64,000 bases of DNA from Gautieria morchelliformis. Taxonomy: Eukaryota; Basidiomycota; Agaricomycetes; Gomphales; Gomphaceae. The notes beneath the pieces were generated by a model, which worked only from the letters and a program-made list of their open reading frames with translations, had not been told where the DNA came from and ran no database searches. Below are positions 5,439 through 43,110 of this stretch, piece after piece; within the stretch, counting starts at the first letter, position 1, and each line of letters opens with the position of its first letter. The position numbers were made by a program, and so were the translations under genes. The DNA is taken from the NCBI GenBank assembly GCA_015179125.1, contig WHVA01000239.1, forward strand, positions 62,001 to 126,000, read 5' to 3'.

Positions 5439-6903
5439 CTAAGCCTTGGGTTTCTTTGGGTACTTCACATGAAATTCAGCAAGTCTGCAAGCCAAATTAG
5501 TAACATTCGAAGAGGGTTCCCAAGATGTAGCCTCAGGAGTGTGTTTGTATCCCTTCCATTCTACTAAGTACTCCAGTCTCCTTTGGTGAACACGACTATC
5601 AAGGATTTTCGAGATTTCCTATTCATCAGCCAAGTTGATTTCAATGGGAGGTGGAGGATCTGCATGTCGACCTAGAATAGTAGATGGCATGGCTGGTTCA
5701 AGGAGGGATACATGAAACATGGGGTGAATCTGGCAAAGATCCAATGGTAAGCCTAAGCAAAACGCATGAGAAGATATTTTAGCCGTGATGGGGTACAGGC
5801 CAAGTCTTTGGTGATTGAGTTTCTTCGAAGGCCGTTTCATGCGAATATTTCAGGGGTCAAGCCATACTTTGTCTCCAACCTGAAATTCAGGAATTGGAAT
5901 GCGGCAACTGGTTGTGGCTGAATTTTACTGGGTAATTGATTTCTTTATTTGATCTTGAAGGTACTGGTAAAGGTCCTTGAGATCTGCCGAATGGCGATAA
6001 GCATCTTCAGAAGCAACCAAAGCGAGAGATACTTCGAGCTTTGTATGGAAACCCTTGTTAGTGAAGAAGGGTGTGACCTGTGTCGTCAAATGGGCTGTGT
6101 TGTTGTAGGCGAATTCAGCAAGGGGTAGCAGGTCAACCCAGTCATCCTGCTGGTAGTTGATGTAGACACAGAGGTACTGTTCTAGGATCTGGTTCACTGG
6201 GTCTGTTTGTCCATCAGTTTGGGGGTGATAGGCTTTGGATAGGTTGCCTTTGATGCTGAGGATTTTGCAGAGTGAGGTCCAGAATCATGACGTGAAATGC
6301 TTCCCTCAATCGGAAATGATATCGCTGGGACTACCATGTTTAGTGAATATGTGGAAAAGGAAGAGCATGGCAACGTCTCCTGAATCAATGTCTGAAAATG
6401 TCAGAATGAACAGTGCCATCTTCATGAGTCAGTTGACAATGACCAGGATCATGTTGTGTCCATCTGAAGGTAGAAGTCCCTTGATGAAGTCCATGGAGAT
6501 TGAGTCCCAGGGTTGTTGGCTGATGGGCAGGAAGCGAAGAGGGCCGAAGGGTTTGTGATGAATGGATTTAGCATGGCGACACTTGGAACAGGAACCGATG
6601 TAGTTGGTGACAAAGGTGGACATGTCAATGGTACTGTCTCCGAATGTTCTTCATCATTTTGATGATCCCTGGGTGGCCTGCTAACTGATGATCATGCAGC
6701 GAGCGAAGGATGTCCAAGCGAATATCATTGTGATCAGGGACATACATTTGCTGTTTGTATAACAGCATTTTGCCATCCTCTCCAAGTGACCAAGGGTCCG
6801 GCGTTGCATTCGGAGAGATGATCGCCTGGTCTCTCGACTGAGACTGAAGATGAGTGATGCAGGCTGAGGACAAGGGCTCAGTCAACTGGCCCTGTTGGAT
6901 GTC
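5439..6903 (-). pseudogene. Element B pol 3' half: integrase and chromodomain
   Basis: Minus-strand remains of a Ty3/Gypsy (chromovirus) polyprotein. In order: a region beginning IQQGQL near 6890, the HHCC zinc part of integrase (LHDHQLAGHPG, then CSKCRHAK near 6590), the first catalytic aspartate in SMDFIKG, the central AEFAYNNTAH segment near 6110, MFHVSLLEPA near 5710, and a chromodomain (EYLVEWKGY...SWEP) ending at the TAG 5439-5441. Several frame changes and stops separate the pieces, so it is dead. Upstream of 6903 the sequence switches abruptly to the Gag of element R. The missing upstream sequence resumes on the other strand at 43083-43110. Confidence 0.85.
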
Positions 6904-9188
6904 ATCAATCTGTTGAAGAGAATTTTGACCGGGATCCATCGCTGGATCCTCGGCCGCATTGTCGTGCCTCACAGCTGCTGTCCTTATACCGGACCTAAGC
7001 CGGGGGCACTCTGCTTTCTTGTGGCCAGGTTGGCCGCATTCAAAGCACATGGTGTTGCTTTGGCTGCCGCTGGGCCGATCGTTAGGCCGGCCCAACATTT
7101 TCGTTGGTGGGGCAGGTCATGGGGATGACCCTGACGCTTGAGGCTGTTTAGCTTCAGGCGGGCGTCCAGCTTGTGCTGGGCGTGAGGGGGGTAGCCGTTG
7201 TCCTGTTCCGCTTCTTGAGAACAGGCTGGGCCTGGTCAGGCCCGTTTGTGTCAACGGCTTGCTCCCTGTGAGCCGGGCAGCGCTTGCCGTTGCTGCTGCG
7301 CTTTCCGCACGGTGCATCCCCATGTTGTATTGGGATGCCTCCTCGATCATCCGGGCCGTCTCGAAGAGTTGCTCTATTGAGCTGCTCTCGGCATTATAGC
7401 CCTTTTTGAGAACCTCACTGCACAGCGTTTCGCGCAGCGCTGATACGAACCGTCTCCGGAACGTGTAATCGTCTGGCGGCTGTATCATACGTGCCGCGTA
7501 TTTCGTGAGCTCGTTCAGCATTTCCTGAACGGTTTTCATGCCCTGCATGACCGCATCGAACTTATTCGATGCGTGATGGTACGTCAGTGTGTGCAGGAAC
7601 CTTTTTTGAAGGCCTTGCATCACAGTTTCCATCGTCCAGCTGCGGACCTGGCGATCTAAGTGTTCAACGTTTTGAAGGAACCACTCCTGGGCTTCACCAG
7701 TGAGGTGAGTTCCCACGTAGCCGACCTGCATGTCTATACTGGTTGGCCCTAGGAGGCAATTCATTTTCAGCCATCTTAGGATGGCTGCCACGAAGATTTC
7801 AAACTCTTCGAGGTCAGATCCCCTGGCATATGGCTCGGGGTGAGCCAATTTCACGCTGGCTTTCGCTAGCACAGACTTCTCCGGGTCTGTGTCTGCGGCG
7901 TCTGCTAACGCCACACGGATCATCCATGTGATCCCATCGTACGGCTCCATTGGCACGACGTCGGCCTGGTCAGGGATTCCCTGGCCTTCCGTTGGGGCCA
8001 TGGATCGCTTGCGCGGCTGTGACGCCACGCGGGGCAGGCTGTTATATGCCCTGACTGGCCCCGGGCCCGGATCGGGCTTGGGATCAGGAGCATTTTGTGC
8101 TCTCGGTTCCGGGGGCATTTTGTGCCTGGTGTCCCCGGTCAGTCCCGCGTTGCGGATCCGCAGCCTGCTGTTGTAGGCTGCGTGCGCCTGCCGTGCGTCC
8201 TGTACGGCTTGCGTGAGCTGCTCATTGGGCAGCTGAGCGGTGTGGCTGTGGGCCACTGTCTCTTCAGCGTTCTTCGCTAGTAGCTCGAGTGCCCATGTGT
8301 GGCGGCGCGCGGCTGCGGCTTCTTTACGCTGCCAGTGTGCGACTTTGAGCTCTAAGCTCTCGGTCGTCGTTTCAGAGTCAGGCTCTGAGGCGACCTGATC
8401 CCTAACGATCTGTTGGATCATCTTACGGCTGTCTGTTGGGGCAGCCAGTTGCTCTTGAGGTTCATTCCCGAACCTTACGTCCTGTTCGACCGGAACGGCT
8501 GGCAGCGGCATTCCCTGCTTGTCCCGCTCCTTTCAGCACGGGTCCTCCACGTCACGACTGCGTTCGTTGGCTGCAGACTGTCGCGAGCTCGGATATGTTG
8601 CGTCGCGTTCCCCGCATGGGCGGAGGGCTTTCTGGACGTCCTCCAGCATGGCTGCGTCTTGCAGCCTGATCTCCTCCGCCTGGTGGAGTTCCTTGCCGAT
8701 TGCCATTAGGGCGGCAGTGGTGTTGTCAAGCTGCGATGCCAGCTGATCGTGCTTGTGGCGCGTCAGCATGCTTCGGTGCAGTGCAGCCTGCACTTGTTTG
8801 TTCAGGGCCTCTGCCATCTCGTGGTCGATGGCGTGAGCCCTCGAGCTCTTGCGACTGGAGCTCGAGTATTCCGAGTCCTGACCATCGTCTGGGGCTCGTC
8901 TTTTTTGCCGTTGTCCCCCTTCAGGGACGATCATCATCACTCTACTTCGTGAGCGTCGGTTTGAGTTGTGGCTTTGTGCCCGCCTCGACGTTGTTGCTCT
9001 ATCATCTGACGACGGCGAGACTTCTCTTCCCTTTCCTTTGTTTCTGGGCAGAGAGGAATGGGGGGGCGGCACCAGCTCGTTGCCCGGCGTCGTCTCTTCC
9101 TCGGCCACGCTCGACGAGATGTGGTCGGGGTTTTCCTCATCCTCTACTGAGGGAACGAGGGCGGTGAGATCTACGATCTCTCCATCTT
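6904..9188 (-). pseudogene. Element R Gag (coiled coil, capsid, zinc knuckle)
   Basis: One minus-strand frame of about 760 codons, broken only by two TGA codons (8533-8535 and 7117-7119), both where CGA would fit. The N-terminal third is acidic and Ser-rich, then a coiled coil (residues encoded near 8790-8590). The middle, from 8100 to 7350, is a Ty3 capsid-like region (YVGTHLTGEAQEWF). The end carries a CCHC knuckle, CFECGQPGHKKAEC, near 7050. No in-frame ATG lies close to the LTR; the first is at 8937, so the start may be spliced or mutated. The frame stops being Gag at the 6900-6904 inversion junction, and the protease half is at 43106. Confidence 0.8.
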
Positions 9189-9327
9189 CTACGTAGTGAC
9201 AGGTAAGAGTAAGATGCGATGGGGACCGCTGGCCGGTTCCCACGCATAAACTAGACAGTGGGTCCCTAAGGGGCGCACTGGGATTATGTAATAACTATTG
9301 TACATGTAGATACACAGGTTATTTACA
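9189..9327 (-). repeat. 5' LTR of element R
   Basis: 139 bp reading TGTAAATAACC...CTACGTAG on the minus strand. It matches 50311-50449 with three differences that I can find. The other copy is preceded by a purine tract and the present one is followed by Gag, so they are the 5' and 3' LTRs of one family. The four bases GTAG (9328-9331) sit between the LTR and the TTCAG target duplication. Confidence 0.85.
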
Positions 9328-9331
9328 CTAC

Positions 9332-10542
9332 CTGAATTGCTTTCATGAGCCTTTTCGATATCAAAAGATGATTGAAAGTCGTCATCATGGAACAGGGCTA
9401 ATTGAGGTACGCTTCTTCTTCGATCGCGTGTTATGGCTGTGTATCGGTTCATCATCGAGCTCTGCTTCCACTATGGTATCTTTGAAGTCAGTGGTTGTGT
9501 TTTAGGTGCTAATGGATTGCTTACAGGCAGAATGCTTTGATGTCAATGCATCTTTTCCTTTGAGTTCGTGAATGATGCTGCTTAACCACTTTTGGGACAC
9601 TGCAGACTATTATTAGATGTCCAGACACAGTAAGATATTCAAGGCCTACCAAGGTATAGCTTACTTTCCTGCCAGCCTTTACTCTTACCTCCTTTAGCAT
9701 CCACAAAATCATATCCATCGGGGACTTCACGGTGCAGCGAGAGGCCCGAGCGGCTTGCTTTCAGCAGGCGCCAGGTAAATTCATCACCAACCTCTGCTAC
9801 GTCATCCATAGGCTCAAAATCAGCAGGTAACATTTGCCGCAGCCACTCATCAAGCTTGCGAGTTGACCATTGGTTGGAGAACTCCAATTCGCCAGGATTC
9901 CTGAATATAGCAAAGGTGGCTTCGCTTAGCTGATTGATACGCTGTAAGTTCGGTTCCGTTGTTTCATTGAGTGTCTTGGTATCCTGTGATCTCAAGGTAA
10001 GTGTAGTCATTAATCAACGCAACGTTTGCTCACATCAATGCCTTCTGGCATTATAACAAGCAGTCGCACACTTGTAAATACGTCCCCACTGTTGCCCCTT
10101 TTCTGTTTTCCCACAGAACGTCTTGTCCCCCCTTTCAGCTGGGACATCTGTTATCTCTTGTAATTCATATTATGAATGTAAGCTGTACCTTTTTGCTGCT
10201 ACCCTCATTCTCACTCATAGCTGTCTTCTTGAGACCAGCAATAGCCTTGCGGCGTGCATCATCTTCGCTCGCGTGACATTTACCCTTCATCCTCGTTTTG
10301 ACAGAGCCTCCCACAGCAGCAGCCTGCGCTGTAAAAGTCGAAAGTAAGTCTTGAAAAGATTTGTTAGTGTTTGGTGACTGAGCTGGTGGTGTAGATGATG
10401 GTATCCGATGCCATGCGATGGTGTGTAAACAGCCCGCGCATGTGGTTGCTTCATTGATACCAATGCTTTCCTTTGGGACAAAATGCGGGCATGAGCAGAG
10501 AGAGCCGTTCTCTGCTCCAGAGTATTTGCATCTTTGAGCCAT
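9332..10542 (-). pseudogene. Gene G, exons 1-5a, unknown function
   Basis: Five exons read through in one frame on the minus strand: 10189-10542, 10034-10147, 9650-9983, 9525-9599 and 9332-9470. The introns are 41-54 nt with GT...AG ends. The product begins MAQRCKYSGAE and has a Cys/His-rich N-terminus (CSCPHF, then CAGCLH), possibly zinc-binding, followed by WSTRKLDEWLRQMLP and a basic HNTRSKKKR stretch. One base appears lost in exon 5 near 9395, so it is not intact even before the insertion. The coding sequence is cut after TTCAG by the LTR of element R. The rest lies at 50457-50831 on the other strand. I regard it as a member of an agaricomycete multi-copy family of unknown role. Confidence 0.65.
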
Positions 10543-11991: not shown

Positions 11992-12986
11992 TGTCATGAC
12001 CTGTCTATTTCTCTGACCCCACTGCCTCTATGTTCCCCCTCGTCACTCCCTAGCATCTTCGCCAGTGTTTGCCTCACCCTTCGACCACTCTTCCCCTACG
12101 TCCACTCTATTCGCTGTCCACCCCATTCTCCGAACCGCTGTTCGCTGCTCGAACATTTTGCCAGCAGGCACGTCATCAAATTCGATCGATACCATTTACC
12201 TGGCGTGATGATTCATCACTAGCCCCATCATCTTCTCGATCCAACCCCTTTGGGTGTTCATATGGCTAGAATGTGTTCGCGGGACATCCTGTCTGTAGGT
12301 CGTGTGGGATCAACCTGGTAGATGAAGAGTCCATGCAGGATAGCATGCATGCAGGTCCCAAGACATGGTTTCGTACATAAGTGCCTTCGCCACCTTTACT
12401 CTCCGTCGTTTTATGCTCACACTCTTCCCTCACTCTATTGTATGTTTATTTCATCTATTTTGTATCACGACTGTGCACCCCTATCCTACCCTGACTCACG
12501 ACGGCCTCTTCCCTATTCGCTAATACCTTACGAGCATTAGATATAAGTAGTTTACATTCACATGTATATTCCTCAGTTCAATTATCATACGTTGTCCATC
12601 TTGTGCAAACTTGACCTTGCTGTGATCATCACCTTGAGCCTTCTCCTGGAGATTTCTATCTTCGACCAGAAGAGGACTTAGGCATCACTGGTGAGTTCTC
12701 ATACTTCATCTTCGTTACCTTAGCCTTCGAACTATTTTCTGTGCTGTCGGATTGTCGCTACTTAGGCAGCCCTTCCATGACACCTTGTATGTTACATAGT
12801 CAAGTGCCACGGGCTATTTTCACTATGAATGTAGATAGGGCGAGCTCCGTTCGGGCAACCCTCTTATCTTGTGAACATTTGTTGGTTCACCTATTCGCCG
12901 AATGGCATACTTATTCGCACAAGTTATTCGGGCATTCGCTGTGTTCACTAATACACGGTATTAACGCCTAAAAACCAATCTTGACA
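11992..12986 (+). repeat. Solo LTR, family C, short variant (TSD AGTTG)
   Basis: 995 bp from TGTCATGAC to CCAATCTTGACA, flanked by AGTTG on both sides. It matches 25670-26941 and the interrupted copy at 35011-41549, but lacks roughly the first 240 bp of those. No internal element sequence is attached, so it is a solo LTR left by recombination. Confidence 0.85.
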
Positions 12987-13130
12987 AGTTGCCCCGAGAA
13001 AGGGAAGGAGAGTGGGTGATCATTTGGATTCAAGTATGATAGAACTTGTAGCTACTACAATAGATCTTCCAATTGATATAGCAATGTTTGCATAATATGA
13101 AGGCCTTGCGACCAAGCAACTGCACGAGGG

Positions 13131-13290
13131 TGTTGGAGTATGGCGAGCGCTAGAAGCTACTAGAAGATTAGTAAGCTTGGTCACAGGATATTTAAGTCGA
13201 GTCACCGTAGTTATATTCCTTACGCGTTTGACAGAGCTCAGACAAACGCGATTATTGTTAACTCTTGAGGTCCGCACCGAAAACCTAACA
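13131..13290 (+). repeat. Left LTR of the TRIM-like element
   Basis: 160 bp, differing from 22645-22804 at about five positions (about 3%). That is more than the point divergence of the Ty3 LTRs nested inside, as expected for the older, outer element. Confidence 0.85.
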
Positions 13291-13792
13291 CAAACGTGTC
13301 ACAGGTGGCTCCCGTTAACCACAGCTGAACTGCGGACAAGAGAGACCTCGAATCGAGGCGACTCGACGTACAAAGACCTGCGGGCAGTTCTGGGCATCGA
13401 ACAAAGTCCTCACCTTTTCGAGGCACCACCAATCACAACTACTGCCAATTTTGCAATCAATGACAGCTGCAATAGAGACGGGTGCGGAAGTACGGCGCGC
13501 AGGAAACCCCAGCGGATGCCTGAGGTAGTGGCCAACCGCAGTCTCATTGTGAGCCAGAGGGACAGAAGGGCTCTACTGGAGGGAACGCTGAACCGGGTGA
13601 TTAGCTGGATGGGCAAGGGAATGTTGGTGATGAGGTGACGAATTGGATGAAGAAATCAAGAAAATTACTTCGAGGCGTATCACACAGGGGAACGATGACC
13701 GGCGACTGACTTTCCCACAAGCGCACGGACTCACACACTTTTCAGATCATTGCACCTCAATGCTGCATGAAATGGAGATTCAGATGGAACTC

Positions 13793-14799
13793 TGTTATGA
13801 CCGTTCATTTCCGACTTCTGACCCTCAGTTCCGCAACACATTCCGCCCCTCTGACATTTCCGACTTCCGACCCTCAGTTCCGCAGCACATTCCACCCCTC
13901 TGATATTTCCGACATTCCGCCCCTTGTACATTTCTCTTGTTCTTTCGACTCTATTACTCGGATCCACCGGACCCACCTCATCGTTCATCAAAACCATATA
14001 TCTGGTCACCCTTGTAGTTCGTTGTCAGATATGTTTTCCTGACCCCTTGTTCTTTGCCATTGTTCTACCTTACCCTGAACCCCCCTTGTAGTCCCATTGT
14101 TCCCAATAGTTAGTTCCCACACATTGTCTACTCGACTTCCGCTTCATCCGGAATTTGCTTAGTACAATACCATTACTTGTTGTTCTGCGCTTGGTATAAA
14201 ACCCCCTCATGTATGTCTGTTATTCTGCAATCAGATAATCACCTTCGATACTTGATTTCCTTCGCTCCACCTCCTGTTCTTAGCACAGCGAGTCTGGCAA
14301 GATCTCAGTCTCTCTCTCAGCCTTCCGTCTTCCGCCTTCCGTCTTCCGCCTTCCGTCTTCCGCCTTCCGTCTTCCGCCTTCCGTCTTCCGCCTTCCGTCT
14401 TCCGCCTTCCGTCTTCCGCCTTCCGTCTTCCGCCTTCCGTCTTCCGCCTTCCGTCTTCCGCCTTCCGTCTTCCGCCTTCCGTCTTCCGCCTTCCGTCTTC
14501 CGCCTTCCGTCTTCCGCCTTCCGTCTTCCGCCTTCCGTCTTCCGCCTTCCGTCTTCCGCCTTCCGTCTTCCGCCTTCCGCCTTCCGCCTTCCGTCTTCAG
14601 CCTTCCGTCTTCCGCCTTCCGTCTTCCGCCTTCCGCCTCAGTTCCGACACAAGTTCCGACCAGACCTTTGGTTCAGTACTTTCCGACTTCCGACTCAGTT
14701 CCGAAATACTTAGGACGATAGTTCATCGGGGGCGCAACCTATAAGTTGAAGCCGCTGTCCTTTCCAGTTCCAACCCAGCGGAAATCTCGATACGTAACA
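13793..14799 (+). repeat. 5' LTR of the Ty3 chromovirus, expanded
   Basis: 1007 bp from TGTTATGACC to TACGTAACA. It is 294 bp longer than the 3' LTR, entirely through a 14-bp tandem repeat. I found seven positions where this copy has T or A against C or G in the 3' LTR, all in CpG context. Confidence 0.95.
14321..14637. repeat. 14-bp minisatellite in the 5' LTR
   Basis: Tandem copies of CCTTCCGTCTTCCG, about 317 bp, with minor variants near 14567-14600. The equivalent part of the 3' LTR (about 22386-22408) is 23 bp. The difference is exactly 21 units. Confidence 0.95.
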
Positions 14800-14832
14800 G
14801 TATTATCTGATTCCCACCCAATAACTATCACT

Positions 14833-16254
14833 ATGCCTCCTCGTGCCACAGCTACTTCAGCTCGAGCAGGAGCTGTCGAAGCTCTCTCTTATTTTGGCAG
14901 TCTTAGATCCGCAGCACCAAGGCACGCGGAACACTCCGGCAGCTCTTGTGCCGACGATGAGCTCTCCGATGCTTTTCCGCAAAGATTCGAAGAAGTGCCC
15001 GACGCTAATCCCGATGACAATCCCGACTATGACAGGAATTCAACGAGTAGCAGCGGCGAACAAACAGCAGCGTCGTTCCGACGCCCATCTCCACCACCAC
15101 CACCTCCACCAGGACCACCTCCAGGCGGCCCTCATGGCGGCCCACCCGGCGGTCCCCCAGGCGGTCCTCCACCTCCAATTCTGCCTCAGATTCCCGCCAA
15201 CCCAGTTCTGCCCGCGCCAGTTCCGGATCTTGCACAAGCCATAGCCATGCTAGCCGGACAACTTCAGCGCCCGGCCCAAGCACCACCACGCCCTAAGACA
15301 AAGGTCCGCGAACCAGATCAGTTCGACGGTTCCGACCCCAAGAAGCTCCAGCCTTTTTTGGTCCAGCTTCAACTCAATTTCCGTGATCGTCCCGACGCCT
15401 TTCCCGACGACGAACGGAAGGTCAATTATGCCCTTTCCTATCTCCGAGGCACGGCTCTTGACTACTTCGAACCCGCCCTCATGGATCTGTTCGCTATCGG
15501 CGACTGGGCCGACGATTACCACAACTTCGTTTCCGAACTCCGCAGCAACTTCAGACCATTTGACATGGAAGCCGATGCGGAAAATGAACTCGATAAGCTT
15601 CGCATGAAAGACACTCATAAGATAGCTAAATATATCATCACATTCCAGCAGCTCGCTCCTCGAGTCCAATGGGGAGAAGCAGCACTCCGACGCCAGTTTT
15701 ACATGGGCTTGCCATCCCAGATCAAGGATGAAATTGCCCACGTCGGAAAACCTGCCACCCTTACCGACCTCCGCAACCTCGCCCAATCCATCGATTCGCG
15801 CTACTGGGAAAGACACTCCGAGATCGCTCGCGAAACTTCCACACAGAGCAAGAACGACAAGTCTTCCGACAAAAAGTCTGGTAAAGACAAGAAGAAGACT
15901 AATTCCGGAAACAACAACTCCGGAAACAACAACAGTAACAACAGTTCCGGATCCAACTCCGGCAACCGGAACAACAACAACAACACCCCTCGCAATAACC
16001 AGGCCTCTGGTTCCAACACCAATGCCCGGAAGAGCACTCCGGACCTTTCCGACAAACTTGGGAAGGACGGAAAACTAACCCCTGTAGAACGCCAGCGTCG
16101 CATGGACAACAACCTTTGCCTCTTCTGCGGCAAAGGAGGTCACGTCGCTCGCGACTGCACTTGCGCTTCCGCCTCCGCTGCTAAGGCCAAAGGCCACGCA
16201 GCAAAGACGGAAGAGAAATCCGAAGCGGTTCCCGCTGCGGATTCAAAAAAATAG
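14833..16254 (+). CDS. Ty3 Gag polyprotein
   Basis: Uninterrupted 473-residue frame starting at the first ATG after the 5' LTR ([13 protein letters not shown]). A Pro/Gly-rich stretch (about residues 80-115) precedes a Ty3 capsid-like region (about 150-310, with [13 protein letters not shown]). An Asn/Ser-rich linker and a single CCHC zinc knuckle, [14 protein letters not shown], follow at about 429-442. Structural protein of the virus-like particle; the knuckle binds the element's RNA. It ends at a TAG immediately after seven adenines, which lets pol be read by a -1 shift. Confidence 0.9.
16245..16251 (+). promoter_or_regulatory. Candidate -1 ribosomal frameshift site
   Basis: A AAA AAA, phased as TC[A AAA AAA] TAG in the Gag frame. 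This is the X XXY YYZ form of a slippery heptamer. After a -1 slip the frame reads on through protease with no stop. No downstream pseudoknot was assessed. Confidence 0.7.
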
Positions 16255-19200
16255 TCAGCAGTCCTTCGACCTCCGCCCAAGCTGAGGGCTGTGTTGACCC
16301 CATTCGTGCGACAAACGAGGTTAAACTCAATGCATCCGCTCTTTCGTCCTCCGACTCCCTCTCTGTTCCGCTCACTTCTGACACCATTTCCGCACCCCCG
16401 TTTACAGCACTGGTCGACTCCGGTTCGACTCACTGTTTCCTCGATTCCGACTTTGTTTTGAAACATAAACTTCTGACTCGCAATATTCCGACAATTCCGC
16501 TCCGCCTTTTCGACGGGTCTTCCAACATGGGAATTTCCCAGGTTGTGGATCTGTCTATCCGTTTCGCTTCTGGGGACAATCATGAAGTTACGTTTTACGT
16601 TACTCCGCTAGATGCTAGCTGTTCCGTTGTACTAGGACACAATTGGCTCACCCGCTATAATCCGTCGATTAACTGGGCATTGGGCCAAATACAGTTCCGT
16701 ACCCCGGATCAGTTTCCGTCTATTCCGACGTCGTCCGCAAAGATGGCTCAGGCCTCTTCTGCATCTCCGCTCGTGGATTCAGTTCCGCACTCCGGTCCCG
16801 CTTTAGCACCTCCGTCCCTTGAAGCTCCTCGAATTGCGCTCGTCTCCGCCACCGCTTTCCGCGTATTGCAACGGCAAGAAGACACGACCATTTTCCAGCT
16901 TCACCTCTCCGATTCGGCTTCAGTCAAGGCGCGTTCCGCCTCGACTTCCGCTCCGGTCGACATGAGCTTAGTTCCGGAAGCATATCGTGACTTCCCGGAT
17001 GTGTTCAACAAGGCCAAAGCCAATAAACCAGCTGAACATCGACCTTACGATTTGAAGATAGATTTGGAAGAAGGAGCATCTCCGCCCCTTGGACCGATCT
17101 ACTCTCTTTCGCAAAGTGAACTCCTAACTCTCCGCGAGTTCGTCGATGAACATGTCAGCATGGGCTTTATCCTCCCTTCGCTGTCTCCGCATGGCGCTCT
17201 GGTCCTCTTCGTCAAGAAGAAGGATGGATCTCTCCGCCTCTGCATCGATTTCCGCGGACTCAATGCCCTCACTAAAAAGGACAAATATCCGCTTCCGCGC
17301 ATTTCCGACTTACTGGACACTCCCCGCAGGGCGAAGATCTACACCAAAATTGACCTCCGGCACGCTTATCACCTTGTCCGCATCCGGGAAGGTGACGAGT
17401 GGAAAACCACTTTCCGCACCCGCTACGGTGCTTTTGAGTGGACTGTCATGCCTTTCGGTCTAACCAATGCTCCCGCCGCTTTTCAGCGATTCATGAACGA
17501 CGTATTTTCCGACCTTCTCGACGTATGTGTCCTAGTCTACATTGACGACATCCTCATTTATTCCGACACACCGGAAAAACATTGGGAACATGTCCGCGAA
17601 GTACTCCGCTGTCTACGCAAACACCATCTCTAACCGGAGTTCGCCGGTACAGCGCAAAAGCAGAGAAATGCGAATGGCATCGCGACACGGTCGAATACCT
17701 CGGCTACATCCTCTCTCCAACAGGTCTTACCATGGCAGAGGACAAAGTCAAGGCAATTCAAGAATGGCCGGAACCCCAACGTGTTAAGGATGTACAGTCT
17801 TTCCTTGGCTTCGCCAACTTTTACCGGCGTTTCATTTATAATTTTTCCGACATTACTGTTCCACTTACGCATCTCACCAGGAAGGGTGCCCCATGGAATT
17901 TCACTCCGGAATGCCGTTCCACATTTGAAGCTCTCAAATCGGCCTTCACCACGGCTCCCATACTTGGTTTCTGGATTCCTGATGCCCAACTTGTACTCGA
18001 AACCGACGCTTCCGACTACGCGCTAGCCGCCATTCTTTCCATCATTTCACCCGACGACGGAGAAATTCATCCGATCGCCTTTCATTCCCGCACCTTTTCC
18101 GCCCCGGAACTCAACTACGATGTCCACGATAAAGAACTACTTGCGATTTTCGAAGCCTTCAAAATTTGGAGACACTACCTCGAAGGTCCAACTTATCCGA
18201 TCGACGTTGTAACGGATCATAAGAACCTTGAGTATTTTGCAACTACTAAGATTTTGACTCGCCGTCAAGTCCGCTGGTCTGAATACCTCTCACAGTTCAA
18301 CATGGTGATCCGCTTCCACCCTGGAAAGCTCGGAGCAAAACCCGACGCGCTCACTAGACGTTGGGACATCTACCCAAAAGAGGGAAGTAGCGACTATGCC
18401 AGCGTTAATCCGCACAATTTCCGCCCAGTATTCTCCACTGAGCAACTGGCATCGTCCCTGCGTGCCACAGCATTGCAGTTTCCGCTACTCCGCGCCTCAA
18501 TGATTATGGACACCGAGTCTCTCCATTCCGACATCCGTTCCGCACTCCGTTCCGACCCCACCTCCGCAGTCCACCTCGATGACCCCACCAGTCCTGGATG
18601 GTCCCTCGATTCCGACGGATTTCTCCGGTACAAGTCCCAGATTTATGTTCCGGATACCAACGATCTACGACTTCGTGTACTCCAGCAAAGCCACGATCAT
18701 CCGCTCTCAGGACACCAAGGCCAGAACAAAACCCTCGACATAATCCGACGTACCTATACTTGGCCTCTCCTCTGCACGATGGTCCAAGACTACTGCAAGT
18801 CATGCACCACCTGTATGCGCGCCAAGCCTCAACGTCACAAACCCTACGGCCTCCTGAAGCAACTTCCGATCCCGGAACAACCGTGGAATTCGATATCCAT
18901 GGATTTCATTGAGAAACTTCCTAAGTCATCCGGCTATGATACCATTCTAGTGATCGTTGACCGCCTCACAAAGCAGTCCATCTTTATTCCGACCTATGAT
19001 ACCATAACTTCCGCCCAGCTTGCACAGCTCTTCGTGCTCCACGTCTTTTCCAAGCACGGAATCCCTTCCCATGTCACTTCCGACCGTGGATCAGAATTCG
19101 TGTCATCCTTCTTCCACACACTCGGGAAGGCTCTCGACATGAAGCTCCACTTCACTTCCGGTTATCACCCCGAAGGAGACGGACAAACGGAACGTACTAA

Positions 19201-19978
19201 TCAGACCCTGGAGCAGTATCTCCGTGTCTATTGCAACTACCAACACAGCAATTGGTCCGACCTTCTTCCACTCGCGGAATTTGCCTACAACAACGCGCCT
19301 TCCGCTACCACCAGAATTTCACCCTTTTACGCCAACAAGGGCTACCACCCGAATCTCGCCATCCACCCCGAACGCGACCTCGCCTCTGCAAGAGCCTGAG
19401 ATTTCGTTGTGGAACTTGACGACCTTCACCAGCACCTCCGAGAGAACATTTCCGCTGCACAAAAGAGATACCAAACTTCCGCCGATCGGAAACGACTTCC
19501 GCAACTGGCATTCGAGATTGGTGACAAAGTCTTTGTCAAAGCGGAAAAATTCCGCACTACTCGCCCCTCGAAGAAGCTCTCTGAGAAATACCTCGGTCCT
19601 TATGAGATCATCGCTAAGGCCGGCAGTCGTTCTTTCACCCTCAGACTTCCTGACAATATGCGCGCAGTACACCCGGTATTCCATGTCTCTATGCTTGAGC
19701 CCGCAGTTCCGAATACAATTCCGAATCGAGAACAACCTCCGCCTCCGCCAGTGATCATCGACGGAGAACCGGAATATGAAATCTCGGAAATTCTCAACTC
19801 CAAGCTCGACAGACGATACCGCTGCCAACTCCAGTACCTAGTCAAGTGGGCAGGCTATGAAAACACCGACGAAGAGACCTCGTGGATTTCCGCCACGGAA
19901 CTAGACCACGCCTCTGACCTCGTCTCTGATTTCCACAAGTCTTATCCTGATAAGCCTGGCCCCATTTCCGCGCCCTAG
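16248..19978 (+). pseudogene. Ty3 Pol: protease, RT, RNase H, integrase, chromodomain
   Basis: In the -1 frame relative to Gag. Protease has VDSGSTHCF (near 16410). Reverse transcriptase has [10 protein letters not shown] and the YIDD box (near 17540). RNase H has ETDASDYAL and VVTDHKNLEY. Integrase has the H-H-C-C zinc part (ending CKSCTTC) and the D, D, E residues in SMDFIEKL, TSDRGSEF and QTERTNQ. The C-terminus is a chromodomain (LQYLVKWAGYE), which in this family guides insertion by binding modified histones. Two defects: a small insertion with frameshift near 17630, and TGA at 19397-19399 where CGA would fit (ARA*DFVVEL). Otherwise close to full length. Confidence 0.9.
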
Positions 19979-20145
19979 TCAATTCCGACATCATTTCCGA
20001 CACCCATTGCTTTCTTACAAGTTTTCAAGTTATTGTTCAAATCCGATTACTATTCCGCTACACTAATTTCCGACGCTCCAAGAAGTATTTACAAGTCATA
20101 TCGAACTCACTCCTCCCTCATCGTCTCCGCCTCTTCCTCGTTCTC

Positions 20146-22570: not shown

Positions 22571-22644
22571 AACTCAGGGATTCATGGCAAGCTAGGTTTG
22601 AGGGGGTGCATCATATATTGCGAGCTTCTACGCTCGAGGGGGTG

Positions 22645-22804
22645 TGTTGGAGTATGGCGAGCGCTAGAAGCTACTAGAAGATTAGTAAGCTTGGTCACAG
22701 GATATTTAAGTCGAGTCACCGTAGTTAGATTCCTTACGCGTTTGACAGAGCTCAGACAAACGTGATTATTGTTAACTCTCAAGGTTCGCACCGAAAACCT
22801 AACA
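22645..22804 (+). repeat. Right LTR of the TRIM-like element
   Basis: 160 bp partner of 13131-13290, preceded by the purine tract and followed by the GAGGG duplication, after which the integrase-core gene resumes. Confidence 0.85.
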
Positions 22805-30031: not shown

Positions 30032-30064
30032 TAACAAAGGTCAGTCACAGCCCGCACATGACTG

Positions 30065-33527: not shown

Positions 33528-33529
33528 AG

Positions 33530-35010
33530 ACCGTTCGCTGTTTGTATAACAGCGTTTTGTCATCCTCTCCAAGTGACCAGGGCTCTGACTTCACGTTCAG
33601 AAGGGGGACCACCATCCACTGAGACTGAAGACGGGTGATGTGGGCTGAGGACAAAGGATTGGTCAACTGGCCCTGTTGGATGGATGTCAACAGTGATGCA
33701 GAGTCAAGGATGATGGCGCGAATGAGTTGCCTGCTCTTAAACATCGACTGGAAGTTGTGGGGATTCACCAATGCATAAGCACCATCCCCCCCTTTAGGGT
33801 ACACGTTGCCCCGACGGGTCAATGCATCGGGCTTTGTGCCAAGTCACCCAGCTCAGTAGCGAATGATGTAGTTGAAACCTGACAGGTGTTCGGACCATCG
33901 AACCTGTCGTCAGGTCAGCTTTTTTGTAGTCGCGAAGTACTCAAGGATTTTTGTGGTCGGAGAGGACAAAGATGATGTGGGATGCCCCTTCAAGGGAGTT
34001 TCACCATTGTTTGAAGGCACAAAAGATGGCGAGCAGCTCTTTGTCATAGATCTCGTAGTTCATCTCGGCAGGTTGCCCTCTTTGTCGGAGGTGGTTCAGG
34101 AGGCGAAGAATGGAATGGGAGGTGGTCATCGATCAGCGATTCTGTACATGGTGTACAGGGGCAAGAATGACTCAGAATGGGCTCTGTTTTTGGTCGAATA
34201 GGTTCGGCTTCTATTATGCGTTCTTTCATAACTGAAAATGGATGGATGAGATTGTTAGGAAGCGATATAGAGGACTCAGAGGAGTGATTCTCGATCGGCT
34301 TGGTAGATAGAAGTAAGGGTTCGCCATCCACGTCGAACATCTGTTCATAACCAGAAAGATTCAGAATAGGAGTGGGCGAGGGAGTGACTTCCGGTGGAGG
34401 GACAGGGATGTAGGAGAGTGGTCCAATCGCCGTGTTGGGGACATAACCCAAGGATGGCGGGGACAAATGTGAACCAGGAACTGGCGGTGGCGAAGTCATC
34501 GACACAGTGTGGACTTCGGGGATACTGTTGAAGATAGCCGGCAGGGAAATCATCGTACAGGCCATGGCGACCGTCATACGTGGGAGCATGGAATCGGTGT
34601 CAGAAGGAAAGGTGATTGAGAGGGAGCCCCAATCGATAGTGGGTTTCTTAGAGCGAAGCCACGGAAGCCCAAGAACGATCACGGCCAAAGGGTGTAACTT
34701 TGTGACAAGGAACGAAATGTCCTGCGAAGAGGAGTTGCTGAAAGTGAGACTAGTATCTAGATATTCGTGAATGAAACCAGCAGTGGCTGGCTTCCCGTCG
34801 AAAAGGGACAGAGCGATCGGCGAACGGAGCGATGTACATATGAAACCGGGACGAGAGGAAAAGGAGCTATCAATAAAATTGGAAGTAGCACCAGAGTCGA
34901 TGAGAGTAGGGACGGAGTGAGAGAGACCAGGAAGATGTACATGGAGGATGAAGGATGAATCGGAATGGGAGCTAATAGACGCGAATAAGCACACCGGTGA
35001 TGCAGAGTAG
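33530..35010 (-). pseudogene. Chromovirus remnant: protease fused to RNase H, no RT
   Basis: On the minus strand, from 34994, a protease region (PTLIDSGATSNFID, near 34900) runs about 300 codons. It passes directly into RNase H (PAEMNYEIYDKELLAI, then SDHKN) near 34100-33900 and continues to ILDSASLLTSIQQGQL and WSLGEDDKTLLYKQ near 33560. The whole reverse transcriptase between them is missing. Upstream Gag lies at 41550-42053, beyond a solo LTR. It is close kin of element B at 5439-6903 and serves as the reference for the inversion junction. Confidence 0.8.
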
Positions 35011-35070
35011 TGTCATGACGCGTTTATTCCTCATAACTCAGGTGCTCTGTCCTGACATTTCTCACCCCAT

Positions 35071-35565
35071 TGTTGGGTGCATTTATGCTCCTGCACCAAA
35101 ATCAAGCATAATATATTCAATTTATTGTGTGGTGTTTCAATATTTTCTCATACTGTTCTTGTACCATGCATCCATTTCTCTGCTTATTTTCGAAATTTTC
35201 TAGTCACTCTCTATCTCTCCATTTCATTCTGTTATTTCTACTTTCACAGGCGGCTGCACCCAGCGGAGTTTGAAATGACTTCGACGCGCGAGCCCTTGGG
35301 CGCTAAAGGGCCGGGTGCAAGTATATGCCTTCTGAGACAGGATTACACTCCTCTCTCAGTGACAATAAATTCACTGAGAGAGGCGAGTAGTATCTTTCAT
35401 ATTTATATAGCATGTTGACTGAAAATCATGTAGTATATTTGATTCTAGGTATTGTATTAATACATCAGTGACAATAAATTCACTGAGAGAGTATATTTGA
35501 TTCTAGATTCTAGCTTTCTAAGAACTCTACCGAACCTTCCCTGCCATAGCCCCTAGTTGCCAACA
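35071..35565 (+). repeat. 5' LTR of the 35-kb Copia element
   Basis: 495 bp. It contains a perfect 13-bp stem (35350-35362 with 35371-35383) whose loop holds AATAAA, and a second partial copy of the same sequence near 35467. Confidence 0.97.
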
Positions 35566-35567
35566 AG

Positions 35568-35582
35568 GGTTATGGGCCCCGC
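35568..35582 (+). promoter_or_regulatory. Copia primer-binding site (half-tRNA iMet type)
   Basis: GGGTTATGGGCCCCG is complementary to the anticodon stem-loop expected of fungal initiator tRNA-Met, the half-tRNA priming mode known for Copia and Ty5. The shared core GGTTATGGGCCCCG also follows the 5' LTR of the unrelated Copia element at 51442-55948. Confidence 0.75.
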
Positions 35583-38500
35583 AGACACTTCGCAGAAGCT
35601 TTTGGGTGTGGAGAAGCTTGCAACAGATGGAAGTAATTGGCCTCTGTGGCGAGCTACTCTCACAAGTTATTTTGAGTCCAAAAATCTACTCAGGCATATA
35701 GAAGGGAGAGCCATTCGACCTCCTGATCCTCCAGTCATGCCCCCAGGCCATATTCTCACAGAAGCTGAGGAAACTCAGATAGAGAAGGCTGAGGAGAAGC
35801 TGGAGAAATATCTTGCCAGAGAAGGACAGGCCAAAACCCAAATAATCGTCTCAGTGTCAGAGTCACTAGCTCTGATGCTACAGAAGAGACATACAGCAAA
35901 AGAAGTCTGGGATGCATTGGTCAATGAGATGACCAAAAAGCCCAAGATGGTCCTCACCAACCTACAGAGACAGCTTCGCAGTATGAGGTGTCCTGAGGAT
36001 GGAGACTTGAGAGATCACTTGGACAAGGCCCAAGACCTCTATGCTCGTCTCAATGAGATGGGAGCCAGAATTTCTGAAGGAGAGTTCACCGACATTATCC
36101 TTGCATCACTTCCACCCTCCTATGAGGCAGTTATGAATGCCCTTACCACGTCGCTCGAAGAATGTGGAATGCCCTTAGTGCCTGATGATATTATCAGAGT
36201 ACTAAAGGCTCAATACGACAGGAGAAAGACTCTCAATATTTCACAAGAAGAGCAGGCATTTATTGGTTCATCTACGAAAGGGCAGAAGGGCCGGAAAGAC
36301 CCGAAGATGTCTACATGCACTAATTGCCACAAGCCTGGACATGCTATAGAGAGTTGCTGGGCTAAAGGAGGTGGTAAAGAAGGCCAGGGGCCACGTCAGA
36401 AGAAGAAAGCGAAAGCCAAAAAGAAGAAGGGCAAAGCCAAGGCGAATGTTGCCGAAGAAGTGTCCTCTGAGGAGGATGAGAGTGGCAGTCCAGCCGCTTT
36501 CGCCAACTTCGACTGCTCTAATTTGAGTAGTTTATCTCTGGACACTGTTGTTATTCTCGACACTGGAACGACCGCACATATGACCCCTCACAAGAATTTA
36601 TTGAGGGATTACAGTCCATTCTCACAGCCGCGCACAATTCGTGCAGCCAACAAAGGCACTTTTGATGCCTTCGGTTCAGGCTCACTCGTGCTATCTAACA
36701 AGGTTGGAGATAAGACTGTGAACATTACATTGAAGGATACGTTCTACGCGCCAAAAATGGCTGTTACCCTCATCTCGATCGGCCGGTGCGATGATGCAGG
36801 CTATAACACACAAATAGCTGATCAGAAATGCACAATATCCAATCGTAAAGGCAGGATATTGATGCAAGCACCGAAGCTGAATGGCTTATATCGATTTGAT
36901 TTGCAACACACAAGTGCCGAAGCGCATGTATGCGCATCAGCCATGGAAATACATCAAAAAATGGGGCACATTTCACAAAAGTCCCTACAGCACTTGCTCA
37001 ACCGTGGCATGATATTAGGCATTGAATTGAGCTCAAAAGGTGACAAGGTTGTTTGCGATGCGTGCATTCAGGCGAAGATTGCACGCAAATCACTTCCTCA
37101 GGAACCCAGAAGCCGATCATCAAAATTCGGTGACAGAATTTATTCTGATGTCTGGGGACCAGCGAGACACTCCACAATTGACAAGAAATCCTATTATGTG
37201 TCTTTCATTGACGACTACTCAAGAGAATCGGTTATCTATTTGATGGCAAACAAATCGGAAGCATTTTCAAAATACAAACTCTACGAGGCCTTGATGCTTC
37301 GACAGAGGAATATGCACATCAAAGCACTTGTTTCCGACAGAGGGGGCGAATACACAAGCTCAGAATTTGAACAGCATTTGGCCAAGCAAGGCACGAAGCA
37401 TCGGTTAACCGTGCACGACACCCCAGAGTCAAATGGTGTTGCTGAACGTTTAAACCGAACTCTAGTTGAAAGAGCTCGTGCCATGCTATTGGAATCAAGT
37501 CTTCCTAAGACTCTATGGGGGCATGCAATTCTGCACGCCAACTATCTTAGGAATCGGACACATACAAGAGCTTTGCCAGACAAAACCCCTTTTGAAATGA
37601 TCCATCACGAGAAACCGAACCTGAAAGACATACACGTGTGGGGAATTGAAGTCTACGTTAAAGTCAAAGAGGGAAACAAACTAGCAGCCCGTGCCAAAAG
37701 AGCTCGGTGGATAGGAATCTCTGGACAGAGCCATGGTCACTGCATCTACTGGCCTGACTCTCAGAAGGTTTCTGTCGAGCGGAATGTTATATTTGACTCA
37801 GAGATGAAGGGGGGTAAAGCTCCAATCATTTCTATTGAAGAGTCACAGCTACCTACGTCCAGAAAAATGGTACAGGCCATCTCGGCGCCAGCACCTATGC
37901 CTAGCTGCTTAGTCAGCGAAGAGGCAAAGATCGAGGAAATTGATGATGATGAACCAGAGGAACGTCTGAAAGAGCTGCAACCCAGTCAGACTGTTGATGC
38001 CAGACCTAAAGAAGCTGCTCCAACAAGGAGAAGCGAGAGAATCCGTCAGCAGCAGGCGCAGCCGGCCCCAAGTGGTCCCGTAACAAGATCTCAAACTAAG
38101 AGACATGCTGGTGCAGATATCACTACACTAGCTTACGAGGACATTGAGGACCATCAAGACAAATTATTGAACAAGATTTATCCTCTGTCACTGACGGCAT
38201 CAGTGATTATAACCTTGCCATCAGTACACTTTCGACCTCCGATCAAAACAAAGATAATGTGCTGCCGGATTTGAATCAGACCGAGCCTAGCAATGCAGAT
38301 GAAGCCTTAAATGATCCTATGTGGAAAGCATCGATGGATAAAGAGTATAAGGTGCTACTCGACAAAGGTGTATGGGAAGTGGTTAAACCACCTCCTGGGG
38401 CAAATATTGTCGGAAATAGATGGGTATTCCTCTGGAAACGCAATCCAGAAGGTGAACCCATCACACCTAGATCGAGGATGGTCGCCCAAGGCTTTACACA

Positions 38501-39820
38501 AAGTTTTGGAGTTGACTACAATGAAACCTATGCACCTGTTGCTCGGATGACTTCCTTACGGATTATATGTGCCATTGCTGCCAGGAACAACTGGCCTATT
38601 CACCAAATGGATGTGGACAGTGCGTATTTGAATGCTACACTGCCAGAACCTATTTACATGAGACAGCCGTATGGATATGAGACCGGAGACAAAGATGATG
38701 TCCTCCTGCTGAAGAAAGCACTTTACGGCCTCAAACAGTCTGGAAGGGAATGGTACAAACGTCTGAGTGGTGAATTTCTCAAGTTAGGATTCACTAAATC
38801 AGCTTCGGATGGAGCTGTATTTTGCAGACGTGGACCGAGAGGGCATGCATTATTGCAACGGCGGTAGACGACCTCACTATCACAGCTGAGAGTCAACCAA
38901 TCCTCGATGAGGTAAAGCATGACCTTGCCCAGGTTTTTAGTATGAAAGACCTAGGCGAGATTCACTGGCTTTTGAACCTCAAAATCGAAAGAGATTGGAA
39001 TAACAAATCGATTGCAATATCACAAGCCACATACATCCAGAAAATCATCAAAAAATTCAATCTGGATGATGCCAAAACATTTTCCACGCCTCTCGACCCA
39101 GCCGTTAAATTATCCAGGGACCAATGCCCTTCCACAGATGAAGACAAACAGAAGATGTCAAGAATTCCATACAGACAAGCGATAGGATCATTGATGTGGG
39201 CAGCAGTAGCCACTCGACCGGACATTGCGTTCGCAGTGTCATTACTTTCTCAATTCCTCGAAAACCCAGGTCCAACACATTGGCATGCAGTCAAACGTGT
39301 CTTTAAATATCTAAAAGGCACGATGGACTACAAATTGACACTTGGGAAAAATCGAGACGGCCTCATTGGGTATTCAGATGCGGATTGGGCTTCTCAAGAG
39401 CACAGGCACTCATACTCGGCTTATATTTTTCAGATTGATGGAGGGACAGTATCATGGAGTTGTCAAAAACAATCCATAGTAGCCCTATCATCAACTGAAG
39501 CCGAATTCGTTGCCCTGACTCATGCGAGTAAAGAAGCCTTATGGATGCGCCACTTTATTTCTGAAGTATTCCAACCGCTGAATTGTCCCATCAAACTTTA
39601 TTCAGACAATCAATCAGCCATTGCCATCGTCTATGGCACTCAACAACACACGAGGACCAAGCATTTCGACATTAGATTATATTTCATCCGAGATATAGTC
39701 GAAGATGAAGAAATTAAGCTTGTGTACCTACCAACGGAACACATGCTAGCCGATCTTCTCACTAAAGGACTTCCTAGTCCTAGAGTGAGAATCCTCAACG
39801 AGAGAATCGGAATATATTAA
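35572..39820 (+). pseudogene. Copia Gag-Pol polyprotein
   Basis: Starts at ATG 35572 (MGPADTSQK), inside the primer site. The first frame is 900 codons: Gag, a CCHC knuckle CTNCHKPGHAIESC (about residue 246), protease ILDTGTTAHM (about 327), GAG-pre-integrase, and integrase with D in YSDVWGP (about 525), D in VSDRGGEY (about 588) and E in VAERLNR (about 625). Reverse transcriptase follows after a -1 frame change near 38160-38200 (WVFLWKRNP, QMDVDSAYLN). A second -1 change lies near 38842 within GGG, then the VDD box (ATAVDDLTI) and RNase H (YSDADWAS, LYSDNQSAI), ending at the TAA 39818-39820. Two frameshifts make this copy non-functional as read. Confidence 0.9.
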
Positions 39821-39833
39821 GCTTGAGGGGGCG

Positions 39834-40328
39834 TGTTGGGTGCATTTATGCTCCTGCACCAAAATCAAGCATAATATATTCAATTTATTGTGTGGTGTTT
39901 CAATATTTTCTCATACTGTTCTTGTACCATGCGTCCATTTCTCTGCTTATTTTCGAAATTTTCTAGTCACTCTCTATCTCTCCATTTCATTCTGTTATTT
40001 CTACTTTCACAGGCGGCTGCACCCAGCGGAGTTTGAAATGACTTCGACGCGCGAGCCCTTGGGCGCTAAAGGGCCGGGTGCAAGTATATGCCTTCTGAGA
40101 CAGGATTACACTCCTCTCTCAGTGACAATAAATTCACTGAGAGAGGCGAGTAGTATCTTTCATATTTATATAGCATGTTGACTGAAAATCATGTAGTATA
40201 TTTGATTCTAGGTATTGTATTAATACATCAGTGACAATAAATTCACTGAGAGAGTATATTTGATTCTAGATTCTAGCTTTCTAAGAACTCTACCGAACCT
40301 TCCCTGCCATAGCCCCTAGTTGCCAACA
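39834..40328 (+). repeat. 3' LTR of the 35-kb Copia element
   Basis: 495 bp partner of 35071-35565, starting 13 bp after the pol stop. Confidence 0.97.
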
Positions 40329-41549
40329 CCCATTTCCGTGTTCGTTCCGATCACTATTGTCATGTTCGGCAACCGATATTCGCTGATTCGTGCCCGTTAC
40401 CACCGCCACGCCGTTAAACGCATGACCAACGGTTTTGGACTGACTTGACAAGTCATCACTGGGTCTACTACCTCCGCTGTTCGACCCTCCTCTGATGGTG
40501 TTCTGATAGTTGGATTTCCATGACCAGTGTATTTCCTACACCTTGGTATCCCCATTTTCCCTTTCGCTACTCCTCCTCGGTATTCGCTCGGCTTCGCCCT
40601 CTACCTCCACCTCTCCTCCACTAGGTCACCTCTGTTCACCCTTCCTTGCATTTCGCCAAACGGCGAGTCGCTGCTCGCATCATTCGCTAGCAGGCACACC
40701 ATCAAATACGATCGATACCATTCACCCGGCATGATGGTCCATCATTAACCCCATCGTCTTCTTAAATCCAACCCCATTGGGCGTTCGTATGGTCGGAGTA
40801 TGTTCGCAGGGCATCCCCTCCATAGGCCGTGGGGAATCAACCCAGTAGACCAAGAGTCCATGCAGGGTAGCATGTACACGGGTCCCAAGACATGGTTTTG
40901 TCCATAAATGCCTTCGCCACCTCTACTCTCTGTCGTTTCATGTGTTCCCCTTTCTTACATTCTATTGTATGTTTATTTCATCTATGTTGTATCATGACTG
41001 CGCACCCCTATCCAACCCTGACTTGTGACGGCCTCTTTCCTATTCGCTGATACCTTACGAGCATTCGATATAAGTAGTTTACATTCACATGTACATTCCC
41101 CAGTTCAATTATCATACGTCGTCCATCTTGTGCAAACTTGACCTCGCTGTGATCATCATCTTGAGCCTCTCCTTGAAGATTTCTATCTTCAACCAGCCAA
41201 GGACTTAGGCATCACTGGTGAGTTCTCATACTTCGCCTTCGTTACCTTAGCCTTCAAACTACTTTCTGTGCTGTTCGCGAAGGGCTCCGAAGGAGCACCT
41301 TCGCCAGCGAAGGGACCGTCGAAACTTAGACAGCCCTTCCGCGATATCTTGCACATTGCGTCATCAAGTGCCGCGAGCTATTTTGCTACGACTGTAGATA
41401 GGGTGAGCCCCTTTCAGGCAACCCTTTTGTTTCGTGAACATTCATCGGTTCACTTATTCGCCGAACGGCATACTTATTCGCACAAGTTATTCGGGCATTT
41501 GTTGTGTTCACTAATACACGATATTAACGCCTAAAAACCAATCTTGACA

Positions 41550-42053
41550 AGTAGATAGGGTTGTTATTTGGAGGGACAAAACAGGTATGGGTAAGAGTGG
41601 TGGAAAATGAGTCAGAGTCTGGTGGGAAAAAAGGTTCAGGTCCGCCAAGGAGGGCAGAAAGCTGTGCAAAGGATTGGTACAGGGAAGGGCGACCCACAAA
41701 GGAGTATGGCTTTCCCGCGAATAAACAAGGCTCAGGCGTGCCAGGGGAGGCAGGAATCTGTATAGAGGGGTGTTGGAGGGGAGGTTGTCCCATGAAGGGG
41801 AATAGCGCAGGCCTTCCAAGTAGGGCAGGAGTCTGAGGGAATGTTCGTTGCGGGGGAACGCGACCTGCGAAATGGTGAGGCTGTCCCACAAATAGAAGCG
41901 GCACAGGCCTGTCAGGTGGGGCAGGAGTCTGTGTGAAAACTTGTTGTGGTGGTGGTTGTCCCGCGAATAGAAGTGGCATAGAGTGCATGTGTAGAAAAGG
42001 GTGATGAATAGATGGAATAAATGCTTTGACTATAGTTGTTAGTTCAATTATAC
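41550..42053 (-). pseudogene. Chromovirus Gag remnant with Pro-rich repeats
   Basis: On the minus strand this is the upstream continuation of the protease frame at 35010. It is built from about four degenerate copies of a roughly 30-residue Pro/Gln unit (GQPPPQQVFTQTPAPPDRP and similar). No knuckle is visible in the part kept. It begins abruptly at the LTR at 42054. Confidence 0.6.
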
Positions 42054-43082
42054 CGTCAAGATTGGTTTTTAGGCGTTAATATCGTGTATTAGTGAACACA
42101 GCGAATGCCCAAATAACTTGTGCGAATAAGTATGCCGTTCGGCGAATAGGTGAACCAACAAATGTTCACAAGATAAGAGGGTTACCCGAACGGAGCTCGC
42201 CCTATCTACAGTCACAGCAAAATAGCCCATCCCACTTGACGATGTAACGTGCAAGGTGTCAGGGAAGGGCTGTCTAAGTAGCGACAATCCCTTCGCTGGC
42301 GAAGGTTCTCCTTCGAAGCCCTTCGCTGACAGCACAGAAAATAGTTCGAAGGCTAAGGTCACGAAGATGAAGTATGAGAACTCACCAGTGATGCCTAAGT
42401 CCTCTTCTGGTTGAAGATAGAAATCTACAGGAGAAGGCTCAAGATGATGATCACAGCGAGGTCAAGTTTGCACAAGATGGACGTATGATAATTGAACTGG
42501 GGAATATACATGTGAATGTGAACTACTTATATCGAATGCTCGTAAGGTATCAGCGAATAGGGAAGAGGCCATTAGGAGTCAGGGTTGGATAGGGGTGCGC
42601 AGTCATGATACAACATAGATGAAATAAACATACAATAGAGTGAGAGAAGAGGGCGAACATGAAACGATGGAGAGTAAAGGTGGCGAAGGCACCTATGTAC
42701 GAAACCATGTCTTGGGACCTGCATATACACCACCCTGCATGGACTCTTCATCTGCTGGGTTGATCCCACACGACCTATGGGTAGGATGCCCCACGAATGC
42801 ATCCTGACCATATGAACACCTAAAGGGGGTTGGATCGAGAAGATGATGGGGCTAGTGATGAACCATCACGCCGGGTAAATGGTATCGATCGTATTTGATG
42901 GCGTGCCTGCTGGAGAAATGTGCGAGCAGCGAATAGCAGTTCGGAGAATGGGGTGAACAGTGAATGGAGTGAACATAGACGAAGAGTGGTCGAAGGGTGA
43001 GGCGAACTCTGGCAAAGATGCTAGGGAGTGATGAGGGGGAACGTAGAGGCAGCGGGGTAAGGGAAATAGACAGGTCATGACA
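42054..43082 (-). repeat. LTR, family C, minus strand, no TSD
   Basis: About 1029 bp matching the other family copies in reverse. The expected terminal T at 42054 is C. Flanks are TATAC on the left and CATCC on the right, not a duplication. The left flank is Gag of one chromovirus and the right flank is pol of element B type, so it marks a rearrangement joint, probably LTR-to-LTR recombination. Confidence 0.8.
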
Positions 43083-43110
43083 CATCCTTGACTCTGCATC
43101 GCTGGTGACA
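43083..43110 (+). other. Displaced element B pol scrap at the inversion joint
   Basis: Reads ATCCTTGACTCTGCATCGCT, then GGTGACA, giving ILDSASLVT. This is the sequence found on the minus strand at 33685-33715 (ILDSASLLTS), directly upstream of IQQGQL. At 43106-43110 (TGACA) it switches to element R protease leader. It is the missing partner of the 6900-6904 joint. Confidence 0.8.

Follow-up and report, generated by a model that had tools for sequence, protein, structure and literature searches.

Reciprocal joints inside two Ty3/Gypsy-type retrotransposons point to a 36.2-kb inversion in Gautieria morchelliformis

A window of 64,000 nucleotides (C270:62001-126000, from contig WHVA01000239.1) of the 122-Mb genome of Gautieria morchelliformis, which is assembled in 1113 contigs, was analysed; much of it is made up of a nest of long terminal repeat (LTR) retrotransposons and of a LINE-type (long interspersed nuclear element) element. 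The comparison of this window with the other copies of its repeats in the same genome suggests that a single inversion of 36.2 kb very probably occurred here, with one end inside a retrotransposon hereafter referred to as R and the other inside a copy, B1, of a second element, B; the sequences of the two now meet at 6901|6902 (left joint) and 43109|43110 (right joint; Table 1). The broader statement, in which two breaks and non-homologous end-joining are added as the mechanism, can be regarded as likely. What is read directly in the assembled sequence are the reciprocal joints, the loss of bases relative to the other copies, the lack of long homology and the presence of one and the same R insertion on both sides.

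On the minus strand the left joint reads ...CAACAGATTGATGA|CATCCAACAGGG..., and on the plus strand the right one reads ...GCATCGCTGGTGAC|AGGGGGAGGG.... Genome-wide matching, in which the best 40 candidates per query were scored, revealed that the similarity to other copies ends precisely at these points: for the query 6500-7300 (best 40 of 875) all the 40 non-self rows, which stand for 39 places, one of them accompanied by an additional short row, start at query base 403, i.e., at 6902; for the query 42700-43500 (best 40 of 4590) 39/39 non-self rows start at query base 411, i.e., at 43110; and for the query 6400-6910 (best 40 of 171) 39/39 stop at 6900-6902. In addition, the two halves of R adjoin in 18/18 R loci fetched for alignment, where the sequence reads GATGA-AG-AGGGG, and the 27 bp of B preceding the right joint (the B1 remnant) lie immediately before the left B piece in 11/11 fetched B loci, the window itself being left out of both samples. 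The row ends and these adjoining halves confirm the proposal of the initial annotation that joints linking R and B are located at 6900-6904 and 43106-43110. Genome-wide pattern counts (up to three mismatches; the reversed pattern, used as a control, gave 0 in all four counts) returned 564 occurrences of the unbroken R site, 117 of the unbroken B site (the window's own B2 copy counted in), and a single occurrence of each chimaeric joint, that is, the window itself; no other copy carrying the same chimaeric joint, which had been named beforehand as a finding that would speak against an inversion, was thus detected at this threshold. The two joints are reciprocal, and one flip resolves both. Among the 40 candidates scored for each R-side query, no uninverted allele was found in the assembly, and the most similar R copies elsewhere reach 96% identity with the R halves of the window.

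A further, independent indication that the outer sequences belong together comes from the ends of R. The LTR of this element starts with TGTAAATAAC and ends with CCTTTACA; on the minus strand the 5' LTR starts at 9327, and on the plus strand the last base of the 3' LTR is 50525. When both outer flanks are read in the sense of R, the 5' side ends with CAGGTAG and the 3' side begins with GGTAGTC, so that they have the 5 bp GGTAG in common, a match with a simple chance of 1 in 1024. The flanks, which belong to a repeat (X), now lie 41 kb from each other and are oppositely oriented; nevertheless, when they were searched separately, they turned out to be contiguous in 13/13 close non-self copies of X, whose identity is 95-96% for the left flank and 84-96% for the right one. 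In each of these 13 copies the left- and right-flank matches overlap by 8 bases, the length expected from GGTAG together with the chance-matching neighbours CA and T. Of eleven weaker left-flank matches (70-81%), the one in C113 also has the right flank adjoining, with 5 unmatched bases between; for the other 10, the 40 candidates scored (of 130) included no right-flank match. On the basis of the shared GGTAG and of the 13 empty X sites, the ends at 9327 and 50525 can be assigned to one R insertion into X, and a flip of 6902-43109 is the simplest change explaining both the opposite orientation of the R ends and the two joints.

The assignment of R to the Ty3/Gypsy type relies on an LTR pair, a 5-bp duplication, gag, and reverse transcriptase-RNase H followed by integrase, all of which were recognized; Integrase_H2C2 scored above the Pfam cut-off and rve below it, a Tf2-1-like SH3 domain was seen, and no protease was found in the subset of frames scanned. 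The two LTRs differ at 3/139 bases. Compared with copies L033 and L034, R lacks about 325-330 bp at 9186/9189, from the inner part of its 5' LTR and from the leader; this is another deletion close to the left joint. The 3' half of R is interrupted by a solo-LTR-like piece at 45687-46752, of the same family as 3270-4340 (85% alike); no exact 5-bp duplication was found around the former, which is flanked by ACGCC and GCGCC, and the one found around the latter is shifted. Three frames of or near X matched no Pfam family.

As regards B, the B1 remnant matches the fetched loci at 25 of 27 bp in eight cases, at 24 in two and at 23 in one. A stretch at 33665-33715 matches it at 25/27 bp, the next best 27-mer of the window scoring 18. 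This stretch had been described in the initial annotation as a third, uninterrupted relative showing that the two B pieces belong together; it is indeed real, and it lies within a second B-type element, B2, whose 5' LTR ends 27 bp from the right joint. The same annotation had also suggested one inversion without repeat recombination, which is supported by the reciprocal joints, the R target-site duplication and the 13 empty sites. The idea that this inversion restores both elements at once holds for R (minus 2 bp) but not for B, of which only 27 bp are regained. Similarly, TGACA is literally present in both joints (6904-6900 on the minus strand and 43106-43110 on the plus strand), but it does not stand as microhomology of the parental sequences: TGAAG stands at this place in 18/18 fetched R copies, and the parents therefore share TGA at most.

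The bases around the breaks leave little room for homology. R lost 2 bp (AG). The loss from B amounts to about 3-4 bp and falls in a tandem ATCC repeat, where either ATC or ATCC is gone, according to how that copy looked before the event. The parental overlap is 0 bp at the left joint, or 3 bp if the B copy had one ATCC unit, and up to 1 bp (A) at the right joint. The BLAST hits listed for the pieces near the breaks (500 bp each, and 27 bp for the B1 remnant) include no exact word common to R and B longer than 9 bp, and none at a joint. The self-comparison of the window disclosed no inverted repeat pair at both joints, and no inverted duplication of breakpoint sequence was found, bases having been lost instead. 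Neither joint contains inserted bases beyond those that R and B supply, and at most one base might be counted twice.

According to the mechanism that we propose, one double-strand break would have occurred in the gag/nucleocapsid region of the already inserted R and another in the integrase region of the already inserted B; the 36.2-kb segment thus freed would have been resealed in the reversed orientation by near-blunt non-homologous end-joining, with the loss of the 2 bp of R and of the about 3-4 bp of B. This presumes that the breaks were simultaneous, that the ends were joined by this route rather than by a replication-based pathway, that no element enzyme did the cutting and that the assembly is correct. 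Microhomology-mediated or template-switching repair would be a less probable route. Simple cut-and-paste inversions produced by end-joining show reciprocal joints, few bases lost, no long homology and no duplicated flanks, and our case resembles them in all these respects; it differs in that both breaks are embedded within retrotransposon bodies in an element nest. The staggered-break inversions of Drosophila require no repeat either, but they leave inverted duplications at the breaks, which are lacking here. Ectopic recombination between inverted transposon copies also places the breaks in transposons; however, here two different families are involved, with no long homology at the breaks.

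Some observations weigh against this scenario. The B side of the right joint consists of 27 bp only, and at two positions it disagrees with every one of the 11 fetched B copies, so that the 9 bases at 43097-43105 read CATCGCTGG; the same CATCGCTGG, on the same strand, is also present at 6937-6945 in the R copy of the window, 35 bp from the left joint, a place where it is absent from 18/18 fetched R copies. The first of the two changed bases was also observed in two other B places among the matches listed for the intact B site. This pair may be due to chance, or it may represent a short templated patch pointing to template switching. The exact loss from B depends on how many ATCC units that copy had earlier; no B copy having just one unit was found (up to one mismatch), the only match being the window's own left joint, with one mismatch. 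Moreover, neither the 5' half of B1 (compared with four B copies) nor the 3' half of B2 was found in the window, and therefore at least one more event, probably a deletion ending at 33531, touched the segment. It is also possible that several breaks belonged to one event.

The same data bear on replication-based template switching (of the microhomology-mediated break-induced replication or fork stalling and template switching type), or on a compound event including the deletion at 33531, which we consider unlikely. Such a reading would account for the TGA common to the parents, for the additional non-homologous joint between the LINE-type element and the middle of B2 inside the segment (33531|33532, found once in the genome) and for CATCGCTGG near both joints; however, it has to face the absence of inserted bases at the joints, the possibility that CATCGCTGG is a chance match (it occurs a third time in the window, at 25846, and the BLAST E-value of the pair is 0.031) and the fact that the joint at 33531 can be an independent deletion. 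It is very improbable that the losses at 33531 and 9186/9189 arose together with the inversion in one multi-break shattering and resealing, with short templated patches such as CATCGCTGG, confined to the transposon nest. An assembly error, in which two wrong joins in repeats mimic an inversion, might be suspected given that both joints fall in high-copy repeats and that the contig set is fragmented. Nevertheless, we regard it as quite improbable, because the joined sequences have almost no misleading overlap and the two joints are reciprocal: wrong joins generally depend on sequence in common, of which R and B have 3 bp at the breaks; both joints, each with its small base loss, would have to be chimaeras; and the window contains no N.

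Recombination between inverted repeats flanking the segment is highly implausible: inverted arms do exist, e.g., 9189-9328 with 50310-50449 (98%), but these are R's own LTRs, which the event itself would have inverted, and they lie 2.3 and 7.2 kb from the joints, where no inverted pair was seen. Lastly, two unrelated chimaeric elements, arising from separate truncations or from a template switch of the reverse transcriptase, might look reciprocal by accident. R and B are both of the Ty3/Gypsy type, and a single open frame of 163 codons (6625-7116) is preserved across the left joint, running from the Gag zinc knuckle of R to the integrase H2C2 motif of B. This frame ends at the H2C2 motif, and there is no reason to think that it yields a working product. 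An origin of this sort is hardly conceivable, since GGTAG on both sides and the 13 empty X sites make the outer ends one R insertion, and neither chimaera was found elsewhere in the genome at up to three mismatches.

The inversion by two breaks and end-joining is thus the explanation that we retain; as an inversion it is well supported and ordinary in kind, and its value is that of a clean, base-level example from a single genome. Indeed, a single genome, with no relative for comparison, is enough for an inversion to be documented at base resolution, because intact copies provide the unbroken sequence on both sides, and the duplication and the empty sites tie the halves into one insertion. It also offers a clear case without long homology for the question of whether transposons rearrange genomes through recombination between copies or are merely broad, tolerant targets for breaks.

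Table 1. Coordinates, in the window, of the joints and of the elements they involve.
Feature	Position	Strand	Basis or remark
Very probable inverted segment, 36.2 kb	6902..43109	.	Reciprocal joints, R target-site duplication, 13 empty sites
Left joint, R gag/nucleocapsid (...TGA) to B integrase (CATCC...)	6900..6904	-	Found once in genome
Right joint, B (...TGAC) to R (AGGGGG...)	43106..43110	+	Found once in genome
R 5' half: Ty3/Gypsy-type, truncated 5' LTR 9327-9189, gag	6902..9327	-	Copy comparison
R 3' half: reverse transcriptase, RNase H, integrase, 3' LTR 50311-50525	43110..50525	+	Copy comparison
R 5'-side target-site duplication, GGTAG in R sense	9328..9332	-	
R 3'-side target-site duplication GGTAG	50526..50530	+	
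Repeat X, left part (target of R)	9328..9900	-	Query ended at 9900; X may reach further
Repeat X, right part	50526..51318	+	Contiguous with left part in 13/13 close genomic copies
B1 3' part: Ty3/Gypsy-type, integrase zinc-binding motif, Tf2-1-like SH3	5418..6901	-	
B1 remnant, 27 bp upstream of break	43083..43109	+	B copy alignment
B2 5' LTR 43082-42055 and leader, inserted in B1 in opposite orientation	41550..43082	-	Collinear with L044 7595-9165
B2 continuation: protease and integrase region, cut at 33531	33532..35010	-	Collinear with L044, gap at 34072
B-type solo LTR in B2, duplication AGTAG	35011..41549	+	
Copia element F inside that solo LTR, duplication CCCAT	35071-40328		

The assignment of B to the Ty3/Gypsy type is based on the LTR pairs seen in copies L044 and L042 and on Integrase_H2C2 with SH3_Tf2-1 downstream of it; two further B1 frames matched no Pfam family, and the aspartyl protease match of B2 fell below the cut-off. 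When four B copies were compared with the window, B-internal matches above 80% were obtained only at 5418-6901, 33532-35010 and 41550-42055, and the weaker ones (65-79%) correspond to the Gypsy element E and to short stretches within 41627-42009. The boundary between B2 and B1 was found once in the genome; CATCC, the first 5 bp of the B1 remnant, would be the target site of B2, whose other side is missing. A single deletion ending at 33531 would probably have removed both absent halves, i.e., the 5' one of B1 and the 3' one of B2. The solo LTRs at 11992-12986, 25670-26941 and 35011-41549 were considered as possible ends of B1 or B2 and rejected, each having its own 5-bp duplication.

Concerning the order of events, R, B1 and X must be older than the inversion, given that R and B1 are broken by it and that the two parts of X now stand apart; the inversion is thus younger than the insertion of R. 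B2, the loss at 33531 and the elements E, H and F are all within the inverted segment and none of them crosses a joint; the LTRs are 98.5-98.9% alike in the pieces of E, 96.9% in H and 99.8% in F. H (13131-22804) is a short LTR element with LTRs of about 160 bp and the duplication GAGGG, and it holds E (13793-22570), which is of the Ty3/Gypsy type and has the duplication AACTC. The left LTR of E contains 22.6 repeats of the 14-bp unit GCCTTCCGTCTTCC at 14320-14635, and the right LTR has a short form only. ARAGORN found no tRNA genes in the window. A Copia-type element at 51442-55948, with the target-site duplication GGTAT, is probably a recent insertion, since its 223-bp LTRs are identical. 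Finally, 4411-5065 and 23681-24260 are two copies, inverted relative to each other and 95-98% alike, of a short AT-rich repeat, located on either side of the left joint and not at the joints.

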